Shown in pieces: positions 7,786 through 14,737 of a stretch of 64,000 nucleotides of DNA. The position numbers were made by a program, and so were the translations under genes. Below the pieces are notes generated by a model, which saw nothing but the letters and a program-made list of their open reading frames with translations, ran no database searches and was not told where the DNA came from. The stretch comes from Chitinophagaceae bacterium. Lineage in GTDB: Bacteria; Bacteroidota; Bacteroidia; Chitinophagales; Chitinophagaceae. The stretch is taken from assembly GCA_019752295.1 (NCBI GenBank), contig JAIEMK010000036.1, forward strand, positions 1 through 64,000. The letters are read 5' to 3'. Within the stretch, counting starts at the first letter, position 1, and each line of letters opens with the position of its first letter.

Positions 7786-8868
7786 ATGACTGCAAACAAC
7801 TGCGCTCCGGCACACGAAAGAAAAAAATTAAGTTTCCTGGATCGGTTTTTAACCCTTTGGATTTTTCTTGCAATGGCAGTGGGGGTAGCCATCGGATATT
7901 TTTTTCCATCCTCTTCCGGTTTTATTAATTCTTTTTCTGCCGGTACTACCAATATTCCATTGGCAATAGGTTTGATACTAATGATGTATCCTCCTTTCAC
8001 AAAAGTAAAATACGATAAACTAAAAGAGGTATTCAAGAATACGAAAGTGCTTGGCGCTTCTTTATTATTGAACTGGGTTATCGGACCCATTTTGATGTTC
8101 CTCTTGGCAATTGGTTTTTTGCACAATTATCCGGAATACATGGTAGGATTAATTCTTATCGGGCTCGCCCGTTGTATTGCCATGGTGATTGTGTGGAACG
8201 AGTTAGCAGAAGGTAGTAGAGAATATGCAGCAGGGTTAGTAGCGTTGAATAGTGTATTTCAGGTTTTATTGTATAGTGTATATGCTTATTTTTTTATAAC
8301 GGTTTTGCCGCCCCTATTTGGTTTTAGCGGATCGATTGTCGATATAACGATCAGTCAAATTGCTGAGAGTGTTGCAATTTATCTGGGGGTACCTTTTTTA
8401 GCGGGATTTTTAACCCGATATTTTTTATTGAAACTAAAAGGAGAAGAATGGTATCAAAACAAATTTGTTCCATTTGTGTCTCCGATTACTTTAATCGCAT
8501 TGCTTTTTACCATTGTAGTAATGTTTAGTCTAAAAGGGAAACTGATTGTACAAATACCGTTGGATGTAGTTAGAATTGCGATACCACTGCTTATTTATTT
8601 TGCAATCATGTTTATCATTAGCTTCTTTATTGGAAAAAAATTAGGAGCCGATTATTCTACAAACGCATCAATTGCATTTACTGCAGCGGGGAATAATTTT
8701 GAACTTGCCATAGCCGTAGCAATTGGTGTTTTTGGCATTAATAGTGGCCAAGCTTTTGCGGGAGTAATTGGGCCGCTTGTAGAAGTGCCGGCTTTAATTG
8801 CGCTTGTAAACGTAGCGTTCTGGTTACGCAAAAAATATTATTCGGCACCAACCATAAACAGTAAATAG
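7786..8868 (+). CDS. acr3: Arsenite efflux permease, ACR3 family
   Basis: A 360-residue membrane protein with about ten helices. It carries the ACR3 hallmarks: [17 protein letters not shown] in helix 4, with the conserved Cys130 needed for arsenite handling in this family, and [20 protein letters not shown] near the C-terminus. ACR3 proteins expel As(III) from the cytoplasm using the proton-motive force. It is the first gene of a four-gene plus-strand block (acr3, ArsC-like, CcdA-Trx, phosphoesterase) and is preceded by an ArsR operator. The length and motifs are complete. Confidence 0.96.
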
Positions 8869-8914: not shown

Positions 8915-9622
8915 ATGAAACAAATCTCAATGCTTCTTTGCTCAGTTATTTTAATATCACTTTGTTCATTTAATGTAAATGATAAAGTGCCAACAAAATT
9001 ATATCCTTCCATTACTACTTACTTAAAAGCGGTTGAAAAGGATTTTGATAAGATTCCGGAAGAAAGAAAAATACAATTAAAAAAAATTGCACTTTATCTG
9101 CAAACAAAATTAGGAGCCGAAAAAAAAGCCGGCCTTGTTTTTATCTGTACACATAATTCCAGAAGAAGTCATATGGCTCAATTATGGGCATACGCTGCTG
9201 CAGAGTATTACGGAGTGACTGGCGTAGAAAACTATTCTGGTGGTTTAGAAACCACTGCTTTCAATGAAAGATCTGTAAGAGCACTTACTAAAGCAGGCTT
9301 TCAGATAGCTAAAAAAACAGAGGGCACAAACCCAATCTATGAAGTGAGTTATGCAAAAGATGCACCTGTTGTTAAAGCATTTTCTAAAAAATATATGGAT
9401 GCTCCAAACCCAACATCCAATTTTGCCGCTATTATGACTTGCTCTCATGCAGATAAGAATTGCCCGATTGTACAGGGTGCTTCTATAAAAATTGCAATCC
9501 CTTATGAAGATCCAAAAGATGCTGATGGCAAGCCCAATGAAACAGAAGTTTATAATGAGCGTTGTAAACAAATTGCCACAGAAGTACTCTATGCATTTTC
9601 TTTAGTCAAAAAAACCAAATAA
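8915..9622 (+). CDS. Exported ArsC-like arsenate reductase (low-MW phosphatase fold)
   Basis: A 235-residue protein. The catalytic part is the low-molecular-weight tyrosine phosphatase/ArsC fold common in Bacteroidota: P-loop CTHNSRR with nucleophile Cys78 (C-x5-R), acid EDP with Asp199, and a later C-x6-C pair (Cys176, Cys183), the same spacing as the resolving pair of thioredoxin-coupled ArsC. Unusually, it begins with a hydrophobic export signal (ISMLLCSVILISLCSFN), while relatives I know start at the KLYPSI region. Cys17 lacks a good lipobox because Leu precedes it. The next gene overlaps by one base (TAATG) and encodes a CcdA-thioredoxin protein, a fitting electron donor. I infer arsenate reduction outside the cytoplasm; a phosphatase role is the alternative. 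Confidence 0.75.
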   Translation: MKQISMLLCSVILISLCSFNVNDKVPTKLYPSITTYLKAVEKDFDKIPEERKIQLKKIALYLQTKLGAEKKAGLVFICTHNSRRSHMAQLWAYAAAEYYGVTGVENYSGGLETTAFNERSVRALTKAGFQIAKKTEGTNPIYEVSYAKDAPVVKAFSKKYMDAPNPTSNFAAIMTCSHADKNCPIVQGASIKIAIPYEDPKDADGKPNETEVYNERCKQIATEVLYAFSLVKKTK

Positions 9623-10992
9623 TGCAGCGCAAACAAATTTTATTCTTCTCAACATGCCTACTGATATTGGTTCCTGTATTTGTTTATGCATCACCAATCG
9701 AAGCAATGAATGGTTGGATGGAACAACACTTAGCTGCTAATAATTCTGGTATCAGTTCTTATTTATTTTTGTTGCTAGGGGGTATTCTAGCCAGTTTATT
9801 GCCATGTACTTATCCACTATATCCCATAACCATTAATATCCTAAAAGCAAGAGCAGGTGGAAAGAACAAATTTTTGCAGCCCATTATTTATTTTATGGGT
9901 ATTGCAACCATGTATTTTGTTTTTGGAATTATCGCTTCACTAACCGGTGGAGCTTTTAATACCATATTACATTTCCCCTTAACCAATCTAGTAATTGCAA
10001 TTATTATCTTCATCTTAGGGCTTTCTTCGATGGATTTATTATATCTGCCAATTTTTTCGGGTACATCTGCCGTGAATAGTAGTAATGGTATTACAGGAAC
10101 TTTTTTAATGGGTATGAGTGCCGGTCTGCTTTCATCTGCCTGCGTGGGTCCGGTGGTAGTTAGCATTTTAATTGGCATTGCTTCCGCAAGCAGTGCATTT
10201 TCGATTGCAATAGCATTTACCGCTGCATCAAAAATGTTGCTCTTTGGCATAGGTGTGGGACTACCATTTTTACTAATTGGTGTATTTGGAGTATCGCTTC
10301 CAAAATCGGGCAAATGGATGAAATACGTGCAAATAGCAATTGGCGGGTTGATCATCTACTTCTCTTATGTTTATTTAGAGAAAGCCCTACTTGGATATGG
10401 ATTTTCTGCAAACGCCATTCAATTAATCGGTGCTGGAATACTTATTATTCTGTACGCAACATATCATTTGCAAGGGGAAGCTATTTTAAATTATCAGAAA
10501 ACAAAAAGGTCTTTGTTGATTGTAATTGGGATTATCGGGTTTCTTTTTTTATATAAGGCATTCGTAGGTGGCTATGAACCCGGTAGCAAAATTACTGACT
10601 CCTCTTTTTCAGCAAGTAATAATGTTGAACCCAAAACTGAACAAAAGGGGCAATTGATCTGGTATTTAGATAAGGACATGGCTTATGCTGCTGCCAAAGA
10701 AAAAAGCAAGCCGGTGTTTATCGACTTTCATGCAGACTGGTGTACTAATTGTAAAGCGTTTCAAAAAACAACGCAAACTAATGCAGCACTAAATGATGCG
10801 CTAAAAAATGCGATACTACTAAAAGTATATGAGGGCTCTTCTACATTTAAAAAATACGCATCCGATCCTCGGTTTCCAGAGTTAAAGGTTGGGTTGCCAT
10901 TCTTCTTAATTACTGATAAAGATGAGAATCTTTTGTACAAAACGAATGACTATTTAAAATCGGATGAGATGATGATGTTCTTATCCAACTAA
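9622..10992 (+). CDS. CcdA/DsbD-type thiol relay with C-terminal thioredoxin domain
   Basis: A 456-residue protein: N-terminal hydrophobic segment, a CcdA-like core of about eight helices with the two transmembrane cysteines (Cys62 in LLPCTYPLYP, Cys174 in SACVGPVVV), then a periplasmic thioredoxin-like domain with ADWCTNCKAF (Cys374, Cys377). It resembles DsbD without the N-terminal immunoglobulin-like domain. Such proteins take electrons from cytoplasmic thioredoxin and pass them to exported thiol proteins. Its start overlaps the stop of the exported ArsC-like gene, which suggests that protein is the client. The CcdA-like ArsG permeases of organoarsenical operons are a possible relative, but they lack the thioredoxin domain. 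Confidence 0.85.
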   Translation: MQRKQILFFSTCLLILVPVFVYASPIEAMNGWMEQHLAANNSGISSYLFLLLGGILASLLPCTYPLYPITINILKARAGGKNKFLQPIIYFMGIATMYFVFGIIASLTGGAFNTILHFPLTNLVIAIIIFILGLSSMDLLYLPIFSGTSAVNSSNGITGTFLMGMSAGLLSSACVGPVVVSILIGIASASSAFSIAIAFTAASKMLLFGIGVGLPFLLIGVFGVSLPKSGKWMKYVQIAIGGLIIYFSYVYLEKALLGYGFSANAIQLIGAGILIILYATYHLQGEAILNYQKTKRSLLIVIGIIGFLFLYKAFVGGYEPGSKITDSSFSASNNVEPKTEQKGQLIWYLDKDMAYAAAKEKSKPVFIDFHADWCTNCKAFQKTTQTNAALNDALKNAILLKVYEGSSTFKKYASDPRFPELKVGLPFFLITDKDENLLYKTNDYLKSDEMMMFLSN

Positions 10993-11007: not shown

Positions 11008-11781
11008 ATGAAAATTGCGCTTTTTTCGGACGTACATTCAAACCTTCCAGCTCTGGAAGCATTTTTTGAAAGTTTAGAAAAACAGAAACCAGACGCCGTT
11101 TATTGTCTGGGCGATTTAGTGGGTTATAATATTTGGCCCAATGAAGTGGTAAACGAAATTAGAAAAAGAAAGATTCCAACTATCGCGGGAAACTATGACT
11201 TTGGTGTAGGCAGGATGAGCGATGATTGTGGTTGCGCTTATAAAACAGAAGAACAAATCGAAAATGGAAAATTGTCAATTGCTTTCACAAATAGCATTAT
11301 ACAAGATGATGAACGGACTTATTTAAGAACACTGCCAGCGCATTTGAGAATTGAATTTCAGTTCAATAAAGATCAGCTCAGCTTATTGTTGGTTCATGGG
11401 AGTCCAAGAAAAATAAATGAATATTTGTTTGAGGATAGGGAAGAAAAGAGCACCATTAGAATGTTAGAACAAGCAAATGCAGACATTCTGTGTTTCGGAC
11501 ATACGCACAAACCTTATCATCGAATTTTAAATTCGGGGAAAGACGGAGAAAATTATTTTAGACATATGATTAATCTTGGGTCGGTTGGAAAACCGAAAGA
11601 CAACGATACCCGGGGTAGTTATGCAATACTCCATATCGATGAAAATAGCACGGTTCTGAATGCGGCTAGTGTGAAGGTTGAGTTTATCAGGTTTGCTTAT
11701 GATATCGAAAAAGCTGCTCAAGCCGTTGAAAACAGTCCGTTACCAAATGTATTTGCTGATGCACTTAGAAATGCTAACTAG
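11008..11781 (+). CDS. Metallophosphoesterase (YfcE/MJ0936-like)
   Basis: A 257-residue calcineurin-like phosphoesterase with the full metal-site motif set: LFSDVHSN (D-x-H), CLGDLVGY (GD-x2-G), GNYD (GN-x-D in place of GNHD), VHGSP and CFGHTHKP. Length and architecture fit the YfcE/MJ0936 group of small cytoplasmic phosphodiesterases. It is the last gene of the acr3 block, 15 bp after the CcdA-Trx gene, and converges on the MFS gene with one base between them. What it does in arsenic resistance is not known to me; clearing aberrant arsenate esters or a phosphate-related signal are guesses. Confidence 0.85.
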   Translation: MKIALFSDVHSNLPALEAFFESLEKQKPDAVYCLGDLVGYNIWPNEVVNEIRKRKIPTIAGNYDFGVGRMSDDCGCAYKTEEQIENGKLSIAFTNSIIQDDERTYLRTLPAHLRIEFQFNKDQLSLLLVHGSPRKINEYLFEDREEKSTIRMLEQANADILCFGHTHKPYHRILNSGKDGENYFRHMINLGSVGKPKDNDTRGSYAILHIDENSTVLNAASVKVEFIRFAYDIEKAAQAVENSPLPNVFADALRNAN

Positions 11782-11782
11782 G

Positions 11783-12961
11783 TTATTTTTTGACAACCTG
11801 CGGTTTAGGGATCCACAAAAAATAAAGGGTTATTATCAGGGTTGCAATCGCAGTAGTTAATAATGCAACGGCTGCACCAAAACGAAACCAAATAAGCCCT
11901 GTCATGGAACTTGCCAGCATGGAACAAATACTTTGCAGACCGGAGAATGTTCCGATGGCTGTTGCAATATCTTTTTTATCGGTGATATTTGAGATCCAAG
12001 CTTTCGATATTCCTTCAGTTGCTGCTGCAAAAATTCCGTATAGGAAAAAAAATAAGAAAAATAAATAGAGATGATTGTTTACAGACATCCCAAAATAAAC
12101 TGTCGAAAACAAAACTAGTCCGATCATAAAAATTGTTTTTAATCCCAGTTTATCAGCGAGTACCCCTATCGGAAAAGAAAATAGTGCATAGATCAAATTG
12201 TAGAAAATATAAATTCCGATTACTGCAGTGTCGTCGATACCGGATTGCTTTGTTTTGAGAATCAGAAATAAATCCGAGCTATTGAAAACTGTAAATAGTA
12301 ATAAGCCAAATACCAGTTTTCGATAGGTAATCGGGCTTGTTTTCCAATAACCTAGAAAAGAAAAAAAGGGGGTACGGATCTTTGCGGGATGTGATGAAGG
12401 AGCCCTTTCCCTTAAATAAAAAGTGGAAGCAACGGCTAGTAATCCCGGAATAAATGCAATAAAAAAAAGGGTCTTATAATCTTTGGGATTAAAATAGAGA
12501 TAGGCAAGCGCCAGCGAGGGTCCGATAACTGCTCCTAATGTATCCATTGAACGATGAAATCCAAAAACTTTCCCCTTGGTTTCGGGACTTGCCTCCTCCG
12601 AAAGAATAGCATCTCTTGCTCCTGTTCGAATGCCTTTCCCAAACCGATCGACGGTTCGGGCAAAGAATATCCAAATCGGATAAATAAATATGGCCATCAT
12701 TGGTTTTGAGATGGCACTAAATGCATAACCAATTTGTACAAACGGAACCCGCTTGCCTGTCATATCTGATATTTTGCCAAAATAGCCCTTGCTTAATCCC
12801 GCAGTAGCTTCGGCAAGGCCTTCCAGTACTCCAATCAATACTACAGAAAAACCAATTGTCTTTAAATAAATCGGCATAATTGGGTACAGCATTTCGCTGG
12901 CCGTGTCGGTAAACAAACTCACCACCGATAAAATCCAAACCGTTTTTGTAATGGATCGCAT
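11783..12961 (-). CDS. MFS transporter of the arsenic island
   Basis: A 392-residue MFS protein with about 12 helices. The segments SLFTDTASEMLYPIMPIYL and DRFGKGIRTGARDAIL, plus GFHRSMDTLGAVIGP, mark the MJ1317-like branch, which appears in several arsenic and metal resistance islands with undefined substrate. I chose the ATG at 12961; a TTG at 12985 in frame is less convincing. It is divergent from arsR, and the perfect ArsR operator lies between the two starts, so both are likely controlled together. It is not ArsJ-like in sequence and no GAPDH gene accompanies it. Confidence 0.85.
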   Translation of the reverse strand: MRSITKTVWILSVVSLFTDTASEMLYPIMPIYLKTIGFSVVLIGVLEGLAEATAGLSKGYFGKISDMTGKRVPFVQIGYAFSAISKPMMAIFIYPIWIFFARTVDRFGKGIRTGARDAILSEEASPETKGKVFGFHRSMDTLGAVIGPSLALAYLYFNPKDYKTLFFIAFIPGLLAVASTFYLRERAPSSHPAKIRTPFFSFLGYWKTSPITYRKLVFGLLLFTVFNSSDLFLILKTKQSGIDDTAVIGIYIFYNLIYALFSFPIGVLADKLGLKTIFMIGLVLFSTVYFGMSVNNHLYLFFLFFFLYGIFAAATEGISKAWISNITDKKDIATAIGTFSGLQSICSMLASSMTGLIWFRFGAAVALLTTAIATLIITLYFLWIPKPQVVKK

Positions 12962-13047
12962 GTAAAGTAAATTTATACTAATCAAAGTGAATATTAACGC
13001 AACATAAAACCCTAATTTTAAAAATTTATTTGTTGGTTTAAAACATT

Positions 13048-13067: not shown

Positions 13068-13400
13068 ATGGGTGCAAGTAAAACATCAGATTATTCTCCG
13101 AAAGAAATTGCTCTGGCAAAATATGCCAAAGCATTATCGCATCCTGCAAGGGTTGCAATTCTGAATTTACTGATTAAAAGGCAAGCCTGTATTTGCGGAG
13201 ACTTGGTAGACGAATTGCCTTTGTCGCAAAGTACGGTTTCGCAACACTTGAAGGAATTGAAAGAAGCGGGTTTGATAAAAGGAGATATTGACGGCGTATC
13301 GGTATGTTATTGCATTGATCAAAAAGAATGGAAAAAAGCGAAATTGCAATTGGGTGAACTCTTTGAAACCTTTATTGAGAATAAGACTAAGTGCTGTTGA
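13068..13400 (+). CDS. arsR: ArsR-family As(III)-responsive repressor
   Basis: A 110-residue winged-helix protein. The recognition helix region [19 protein letters not shown] (51-69) is typical ArsR/SmtB, and Cys41-x-Cys43 (QACICGDL) sits where E. coli ArsR has its As(III)-binding cysteines at the start of the DNA-binding domain. Two more pairs, Cys80/Cys82 and the terminal Cys109-Cys110, could help bind metalloid. The operator just before its ATG implies autorepression. arsM and arsC follow on the same strand. This is the only transcription regulator in the island. Confidence 0.93.
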
Positions 13401-13418
13401 TTTTTTTTGAATTCAATC

Positions 13419-13434
13419 ATCGGTATATTACGAT
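13419..13434. promoter_or_regulatory. ArsR-type operator before arsM
   Basis: ATCGGTATATTACGAT matches the arsR operator at 13 of 16 positions; the right arm is perfect and the left arm degenerate. It lies between arsR and arsM, ending 25 bp before the arsM ATG, and suggests an extra regulated promoter for arsM-arsC. Confidence 0.6.
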
Positions 13435-13459
13435 ATTACAAACAACTAAAATAAATTTT

Positions 13460-14311
13460 ATGCAAACAGACGAACAACTAAAAGACATAGTCAGACAGAA
13501 ATACAGTGAGATTGCACTGCAGGACAAAGGAACCAATATGTCGTCTTGCTGCGGAGCAGGTGGCTGTTCTACAGAAGTATATAACATTATGAGTGATGAT
13601 TATACTAGTCTGAAAGGATATAATGCCGATGCTGATCTGGGTTTGGGTTGCGGCCTACCCACTCAATTTGCTAAAATCAAAAAAGGTGATACCGTAATTG
13701 ATTTAGGCAGTGGTGCCGGAAACGATTGTTTTATAGCCCGACACGAAACTGGTGATGCGGGTAAAGTAATCGGTATAGATTTTACTCCTGCAATGATTGA
13801 AAGAGCAAGAACAAATGCCGAAGCTAGAGGCTTCAACAATGTTGAATTCAGGCAAGGTGATATTGAACATATGCCTATTGGTGCAAATATTGCAGATGTA
13901 GTGGTAAGCAACTGTGTGTTGAATCTGGTTCCCAATAAGGATGGTGTTTTCAAAGAAATATATAGGGTATTGAAACCTGGAGGACATTTTAGCATTAGTG
14001 ATGTAGTACTTTTGGGAGCATTGCCGGAAGACCTGAGAAAAGACGCTGAAATGTATGCGGGTTGTGTTGCAGGCGCCATACAGAAAGAAGTTTATTTGGA
14101 ATTAATTAAGGCGAATGGTTTTGAGAATATTGTGTTGCAAAAAGAAAAACCAATTGTAATTCCTGACGACATTTTAATCAATTATCTAACTAAAGAACAA
14201 ATCCAATCTTTTAAAACAGGAAGCACCGGAATATTCAGCATTACTGTTTTTGCTCAAAAACCTTTAACTGAAAAAAAATCTTGCTGTGAGCCAGGTTCTG
14301 GCTGTTGCTAA
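13460..14311 (+). CDS. arsM: As(III) S-adenosylmethionine methyltransferase ArsM
   Basis: A 283-residue methyltransferase with SAM motif I DLGSGAGND (81-89). All four cysteine positions used by ArsM are present: an N-terminal cluster SSCCGAGGC (Cys30/31/36), GLGCGLP (Cys64), SNCVLNL (Cys152) and AGCVAGAI (Cys202). ArsM converts As(III) to methylated, partly volatile species in the cytoplasm. I start at the ATG at 13460; a longer frame back into arsR has no support. An added tail SCCEPGSGCC ends the protein and may act as an arsenic-binding arm. It sits between arsR and arsC (12 bp gap). Confidence 0.95.
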   Translation: MQTDEQLKDIVRQKYSEIALQDKGTNMSSCCGAGGCSTEVYNIMSDDYTSLKGYNADADLGLGCGLPTQFAKIKKGDTVIDLGSGAGNDCFIARHETGDAGKVIGIDFTPAMIERARTNAEARGFNNVEFRQGDIEHMPIGANIADVVVSNCVLNLVPNKDGVFKEIYRVLKPGGHFSISDVVLLGALPEDLRKDAEMYAGCVAGAIQKEVYLELIKANGFENIVLQKEKPIVIPDDILINYLTKEQIQSFKTGSTGIFSITVFAQKPLTEKKSCCEPGSGCC

Positions 14312-14323
14312 AATTGAAAAAAT

Positions 14324-14737
14324 ATGAAGAAAGTATTAGTATTATGTACAGGCAATAGTTGCAGAAGTCAGATTGCACATGGTTATCTAAAACATTTTGC
14401 GGGCGACAAAGCCGAGATTTACAGTGCGGGGGTAGAAACACATGGCGTTAATCCCAAAGCAATTGCTACGATGAAAGAAGATGGCATTGATATCTCCGGT
14501 CACACTTCAAATAATGTACTAGAATATCAGGGTATTGATTTTGATTATGTGATTACGGTTTGCGACAATGCTAAAGAAAGGTGTCCGTATTTTCCAAGCA
14601 AGGCCGAGAAATTTCATTATAACTTCCCCGACCCGGCAAAAGCTAGCGGTACAGAGGAAGCCATTAAAAGGGAATTTGCACAGGTAAGGGAACTGATCAA
14701 GAAGTATTGTCTTGAATTTGTGAAAGAGCATTTGTAA
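14324..14737 (+). CDS. arsC: Thioredoxin-coupled arsenate reductase ArsC
   Basis: A 137-residue cytoplasmic enzyme of the pI258 type. The P-loop CTGNSCRSQ holds the nucleophile Cys8, TVCDNAKERC holds the resolving pair Cys80 and Cys87 (C-x6-C), and FPDP holds the general acid Asp103. It reduces As(V) to As(III), which ArsM can methylate or ACR3 export. No signal peptide, in contrast to the ArsC-like protein at 8915. Last gene of the arsR-arsM-arsC block. Confidence 0.95.
   Translation: MKKVLVLCTGNSCRSQIAHGYLKHFAGDKAEIYSAGVETHGVNPKAIATMKEDGIDISGHTSNNVLEYQGIDFDYVITVCDNAKERCPYFPSKAEKFHYNFPDPAKASGTEEAIKREFAQVRELIKKYCLEFVKEHL

Follow-up and report, generated by a model that had tools for sequence, protein, structure and literature searches.

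An ArsC-like protein with a predicted N-terminal export signal is encoded in an ars operon of a Chitinophagaceae bacterium, and its gene overlaps that of a fusion protein of CcdA and thioredoxin (CcdA-Trx). Together they probably form an arsenate reductase of the thioredoxin type that works outside the cytoplasm and has a transmembrane supply of electrons of its own. Resistance-type arsenate reduction is generally taught as a cytoplasmic step which is followed by efflux. If the ArsC-like enzyme is indeed exported, reduction would be moved ahead of the phosphate transporters and away from ATP synthesis.

The ars operons and the ArsC-like enzyme

The window, a stretch of DNA of 64,000 nucleotides, contains two ars operons. 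The first is composed of acr3, the gene of the ArsC-like protein (ArsCx), CcdA-Trx and a metallophosphoesterase gene, all located on the plus strand. The second (13068-14737) comprises arsR, arsM and a conventional arsC. A gene for a major-facilitator transporter on the minus strand lies between both operons, and for its product no specific NCBIfam model scored above the cut-off.

7786-8868, plus strand: acr3, ACR3-family arsenite efflux transporter, opens the first operon (TIGR00832, 454 bits, cut-off 282.8)
8915-9622, plus strand: ArsCx, ArsC-like reductase with predicted N-terminal export signal (open reading frame; weak TIGR02691 match; ArsC-like fold, Z 16.4)
9620-9624, plus strand: TAATG stop/start overlap, predicted translational coupling (sequence; kept in L048, L049 and L050)
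9622-10992, plus strand: CcdA-Trx, with signal sequence, DsbD-type membrane domain and C-terminal DsbD-gamma-like thioredoxin domain, no alpha domain (Pfam; gamma domain against 4ip1, 1uc7 and 2fwe)
11008-11781, plus strand: metallophosphoesterase, closes the first operon (Metallophos_2; neighbour kept in L048-L051)
11783-12985, minus strand: major-facilitator transporter, between both ars operons
13068-13400, plus strand: arsR regulator of the second operon (NF033788 above cut-off)
13391-14311, plus strand: arsM, arsenite methyltransferase (NF008823 above cut-off)
14324-14737, plus strand: cytoplasmic thioredoxin-type arsC, no signal peptide (best model TIGR02691, 148 bits, strict cut-off 174.3; PF01451 above cut-off)

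The stop codon of the ArsC-like gene (TAA, 9620-9622) and the start codon of CcdA-Trx (ATG, 9622-9624) have one adenine in common. This overlap had been noticed in the window, and it is kept in the relatives L048 and L050 as well as in the relic L049, whereas L059 has a short gap instead. The normal cytoplasmic ArsC, which had been placed about 5 kb away, was also found; it is of the pI258 type and located 4.7 kb downstream (14324-14737). As a separate observation, the metallophosphoesterase is the final gene of the operon in the window, L048, L050, L049 and L051, even where CcdA-Trx is missing.

The open reading frame at 8915-9622 (plus strand) encodes a protein of 235 amino acids with the N-terminus MKQISMLLCSVILISLCSFNVNDK and the following catalytic residues:

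9146-9169, plus strand: P-loop CTHNSRRS with the nucleophile Cys78 (invariant in 108 relatives)
9440-9463, plus strand: Cys176-x6-Cys183, equivalent to Cys82/Cys89 of B. subtilis and pI258 ArsC (invariant; aligns with 1jl3)
9509-9511, plus strand: Asp199 of the DP loop (in 107 of 108 relatives, one fragment being gapped)

The full thioredoxin-type triad of Cys78, Cys176 and Cys183 named in the original prediction is thus present in all of the 108 aligned Bacteroidota relatives, and the CX5R P-loop typical of thioredoxin-type ArsC appears as C78-THNSR-R84. The catalytic residues do not vary, whether a member is exported or cytoplasmic. With 44.6 bits on TIGR02691 the protein stays below the equivalog cut-off of 174.3 bits; it belongs to a divergent sister group of this equivalog, outside of it. 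The Pfam model LMWPc (PF01451) gave no match to it at E 0.001, although the fold is common to both. In the AlphaFold model most blocks of the protein body reach a pLDDT above 95, while the signal (about 55) and residues 1-20 are poorly modelled. The predicted fold is closest to ArsC of B. subtilis (1jl3; Z 16.4, rmsd 2.3 over 135 residues) and of pI258 (Z 16.3). Low-molecular-weight (LMW) phosphatases come next with Z 14-15, so that the fold alone cannot discriminate ArsC from LMW-PTP.

The ArsC-like family is frequent in Bacteroidota (120/395 genomes of the phylum sample, 140/398 of the order sample). A usual member has about 205 amino acids, and its start corresponds roughly to residue 28 of the window copy. 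Furthermore, acr3, arsM or arsR is found at a distance of at most 3 kb in 144 of the 190 members in hand. Because of the ArsC-type residues, the fold and this ars context, arsenate is the likeliest substrate. A plasmid search yielded distant relatives and ordinary DsbD only, and nothing was found in viral contigs.

Predicted export signals in the ArsC-like family

8915-8986, plus strand: predicted export signal, about residues 1-24, made up of a basic n-region and a core of hydrophobic residues (about 4-19), its cleavage site being uncertain (hydrophobicity peak 2.68; constrained in character, not in sequence; pLDDT about 55)

Thioredoxin-type ArsC proteins are cytoplasmic; the window copy departs from them by this predicted N-terminal signal. 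It combines a positive n-region with a hydrophobic core, as expected for Sec export, and the positive n-region would place the body of the protein outside. A clear textbook AxA site was not recognised by inspection. In comparison to L050, 8 of 26 residues are identical in the signal region and 163 of 209 in the mature part, and of neutral simulations run with an equal number of substitutions just 0.4% kept an open, equally hydrophobic segment. The signal region therefore seems to be selected for hydrophobicity rather than for sequence. Signal peptides are known to evolve in this way, the sequence diverging while the hydrophobic character stays. The signal-like segment seen in the window has thus held up against its relatives. 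For the window copy a mis-called start can be dismissed as its source, given that no ATG lies inside the gene close to the canonical start and that the N-terminus appears to be under selection for hydrophobicity.

Most relatives are cytoplasmic, usually with the canonical MYP-type start position. Signals nevertheless occur in several forms: L059 (genome G238) has an exported copy with the lipobox MKRIILLFVLSAFAFSC, L137 a NAQ-type and L237 a QAQ-type cleavage site (AxA-like), and hydrophobic N-terminal cores were found in L064, L073, L126, L148, L149 and L155. The phylum sample, with about 130 proteins, includes four copies with a clear and two with a tentative signal. A tree of 105 members requires at least seven changes of the signal state if the three tentative N-terminal calls (L060, L076 and L147) are left out, and ten with them. 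Export signals hence recur on the tree of the ArsC-like family and were gained or lost repeatedly.

G817 and G758 (with L137 and L140), near-complete genomes of two species congeneric with the window's bacterium, contain an exported copy as the sole arsenate reductase found among three classes. This is unexpected if export merely adds a first line of defence; either export alone suffices, or part of the protein stays inside.

Two loci are worth recording in addition. In L055 (7808-8434), a close relative, an in-frame upstream segment, MKQLFSVGLVNNILRFLSIQKKEKMST, resembles a decayed signal peptide. In L148 (5201-6588) tandem ArsC-like genes, the first with and the second without a signal peptide, are followed by acr3; CcdA-Trx is absent there.

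The proposed CcdA-Trx relay and its linkage to the exported copy

CcdA-Trx consists of 456 amino acids and shows matches to the Pfam domains DsbD_TM (75.4 bits, cut-off 27.1) and Thioredoxin_7. Its N-terminus itself looks like a signal sequence. The redox-active positions are as follows:

9805-9807, plus strand: Cys62, first membrane cysteine (LLPCTYP; invariant in A2)
10141-10143, plus strand: Cys174, second membrane cysteine (SSACVGP; invariant in A2)
10738-10752, plus strand: WCTNC redox motif of the thioredoxin domain (invariant in A2)

Cys62 and Cys174, which we take to correspond to Cys163 and Cys285 of DsbD, respectively, are invariant in four relatives. The C-terminal domain matches DsbD gamma (4ip1, E 2e-10; 1uc7, E 7e-10; 2fwe; range 2e-10 to 8e-10), and the cysteines of the protein are exactly those of DsbD beta plus gamma. 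The alpha domain is absent, just about 25 residues being left between signal and membrane domain, and the score on the model of full DsbD (PRK00293) is 161.7 against a cut-off of 330. The structure model was not used, as its membrane part is of poor quality (mean pLDDT 48.5). The DsbD-like partner of the original prediction can thus be specified as a CcdA-Trx with a DsbD_TM and a thioredoxin domain and a signal-like N-terminus of its own, but without DsbD alpha.

Proteins of the CcdA-Trx subfamily (threshold E <= 1e-60) exist in 2/395 phylum and 2/395 class genomes, the same two both times. Members of the subfamily share 57-68% identity with the window protein, whereas all other DsbD proteins reach at most 31% (20 genomes checked) and at most 30% within the relay genomes. 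All but one of these 20 genomes encode at least one DsbD-type protein, mostly a single housekeeping one.

All four intact CcdA-Trx genes (G000, G1227/L048, G1229/L050 and G238/L059) stand immediately behind a gene for an exported ArsC-like protein. The gene order in L059 is arsR, lipoprotein ArsC-like, CcdA-Trx and signal-less ArsC-like. A signal-less reductase is kept in all four relay genomes: in G238 it is the paralogue directly after the relay, and the pI258-type ArsC of G000, G1227 and G1229 is 100, 81 and 82% identical to the window one, respectively. It follows that the relay accompanies the exported reductase. At L049:3497-3748 most of CcdA-Trx was lost through a deletion of about 1.14 kb inside the gene, of which the start and the last 30 codons remain. 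Upstream of it the gene for the exported ArsC-like protein is intact, and the locus represents a natural relay-minus state, with an assembly error being possible in this MAG. The contig (CALPIT020000049.1) carries Chitinophagaceae-like genes under a Streptomyces griseus title and is probably a mislabelled MAG.

The reverse rule fails: no relay is linked to the majority of exported copies, which must depend on something else, e.g. the housekeeping DsbD. A strict co-occurrence of the signal with the relay was therefore rejected. Moreover, the relay is carried by two lineages of the tree only, with which an independent-pairs test cannot reach significance, and a single clade holding both relay lineages was not rejected by the AU test (p 0.21). 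Thus the association between signal and relay is statistically unproven. The proposed co-occurrence of signal peptide and neighbouring CcdA-Trx stands in one direction, from the four intact relays and the one deletion relic to the exported copy, and fails in the other. The refuting case named in the original prediction, CcdA-Trx beside a homologue that lacks the signal peptide, was checked at these loci, and the outcome did not refute the prediction.

Proposed mechanism, alternatives and known systems

According to the proposed mechanism the ArsC-like enzyme would be exported and fold in the periplasm. Cys78 would attack arsenate and, upon release of As(III), a Cys176-Cys183 disulfide would be left on the enzyme. 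The co-translated CcdA-Trx may draw electrons from cytoplasmic thioredoxin via the membrane pair Cys62/Cys174 to its periplasmic WCTNC domain. The latter would reduce the exported enzyme directly, since neither a DsbD alpha domain nor a separate thioredoxin is present. In this manner reduction could precede the uptake of arsenate by phosphate transporters, and cytoplasmic ArsC, Acr3 and ArsM would handle what enters. As to periplasmic arsenate reduction as originally predicted, the location is well supported by the hydrophobic N-terminus kept in the close clade, the lipobox of L059, the NAQ site of L137 and the repeated signal changes. The linkage of the genes suggests the electron flow, and residues, fold and gene context point to arsenate.

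A cytoplasmic enzyme comparable to other ArsC proteins, with the hydrophobic segment being an artefact of start choice or an anchor facing the cytoplasm, is very improbable. Points in its favour are the canonical MYP-type start in most family members, an internal ATG near that start in several exported copies (L048, L052 and L056), the close relatives L057 and L058 without a signal and L055 with a weak hydrophobic stretch only, and the genomes in which no other arsenate reductase was found. They are opposed by the apparent selection on hydrophobicity, the window copy without such an ATG, the lipobox in L059, the positive n-region placing the body outside and the linked relay, which would export electrons. 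An exported enzyme may also apply the same chemistry to another substrate, e.g. pentavalent methylarsenicals (ArsM products oxidised outside the cytoplasm), or be a phosphatase of the envelope with the LMW-PTP fold. The proximity of arsM to many family members, the fold common to LMW phosphatases (Z 14-15 versus 16) and the exported members L060, L149 and L237, around which no ars genes lie within 3 kb, speak for this possibility. However, phosphatases have no need of the fully conserved Cys-x6-Cys pair, the LMWPc model is unmatched and ars genes are close by in the large majority of family members counted above, so we regard another substrate as unlikely, albeit as an option with some weight.

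A further alternative concerns the electron donor. CcdA-Trx could serve a general periplasmic thiol repair induced by arsenic, while the exported reductase is fed by the housekeeping DsbD pathway. Exported copies lacking a relay are in the majority, housekeeping DsbD is present in nearly all of these genomes, and L049 lost CcdA-Trx by deletion with the exported enzyme intact. On the other hand, the TAATG coupling is conserved, the subfamily is otherwise absent from the sampled genomes and always stands after an exported copy, and in G238 the relay sits between the exported and the signal-less copy. We therefore hold a donor other than CcdA-Trx to be rather improbable and prefer the reading of an exported arsenate reductase supplied by its own relay. 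Whether exported thioredoxin-type arsenate reductases in general are a recurring detoxification strategy of Bacteroidota is evenly balanced in our view. They would have arisen by several gains, some of them with a dedicated alpha-less CcdA-Trx relay for periplasmic reduction with electrons from cytoplasmic thioredoxin, and in some species they would be the sole arsenate reductase.

Compared with the thioredoxin-type ArsC of S. aureus pI258 and B. subtilis (TIGR02691), the window protein has the CX5R P-loop cysteine, the Cys-x6-Cys pair, the DP aspartate and the fold in common, but adds the predicted export signal, an N-terminal helical segment (residues about 28-69) and about 26 residues between nucleophile and resolving cysteines. 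The top Foldseek match is ArsC2 of Deinococcus indicus (8p5n, 8p6m), which possesses the same core fold and is about 22% identical to the window protein; we know of neither an export signal nor a CcdA partner for it. CcdA-Trx resembles DsbD/CcdA in the DsbD_TM domain with two membrane cysteines and in the C-terminal gamma-like thioredoxin domain. It differs by the missing N-terminal alpha domain and by its operon linkage to an arsenate-reductase-like protein. Arsenate reduction outside the cytoplasm, as proposed for the window enzyme, is carried out by the respiratory arsenate reductase Arr. However, Arr is a quinol-fed molybdopterin enzyme of unrelated fold and purpose.

The arrangement had been considered as not described before, which is correct in part. 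Already in 2010 CcdA and thioredoxin were reported in ars operons together with arsC and proposed to be part of an arsenate reductase system (PMC2963123), the only report of CcdA paired with ars operons found in the open-access literature. A transmembrane electron flow was judged unlikely there because ArsC is cytoplasmic (PMC2963123). In that system CcdA has no thioredoxin domain and ArsC is cytoplasmic, whereas here CcdA is fused to a thioredoxin domain and ArsC carries a predicted export signal; this combination would remove the objection. An exported ArsC was not found in the open-access literature, which leaves most subscription papers outside the scope of this search. If the ArsC-like enzyme is exported, the question from 2010 why ars operons carry an electron exporter of the DsbD family would be answered. 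The pair of ArsC-like protein and CcdA-Trx is small and self-contained and therefore directly testable, and the family provides natural controls in L059, with an exported and a signal-less copy, and in L049, from which the relay has been deleted.
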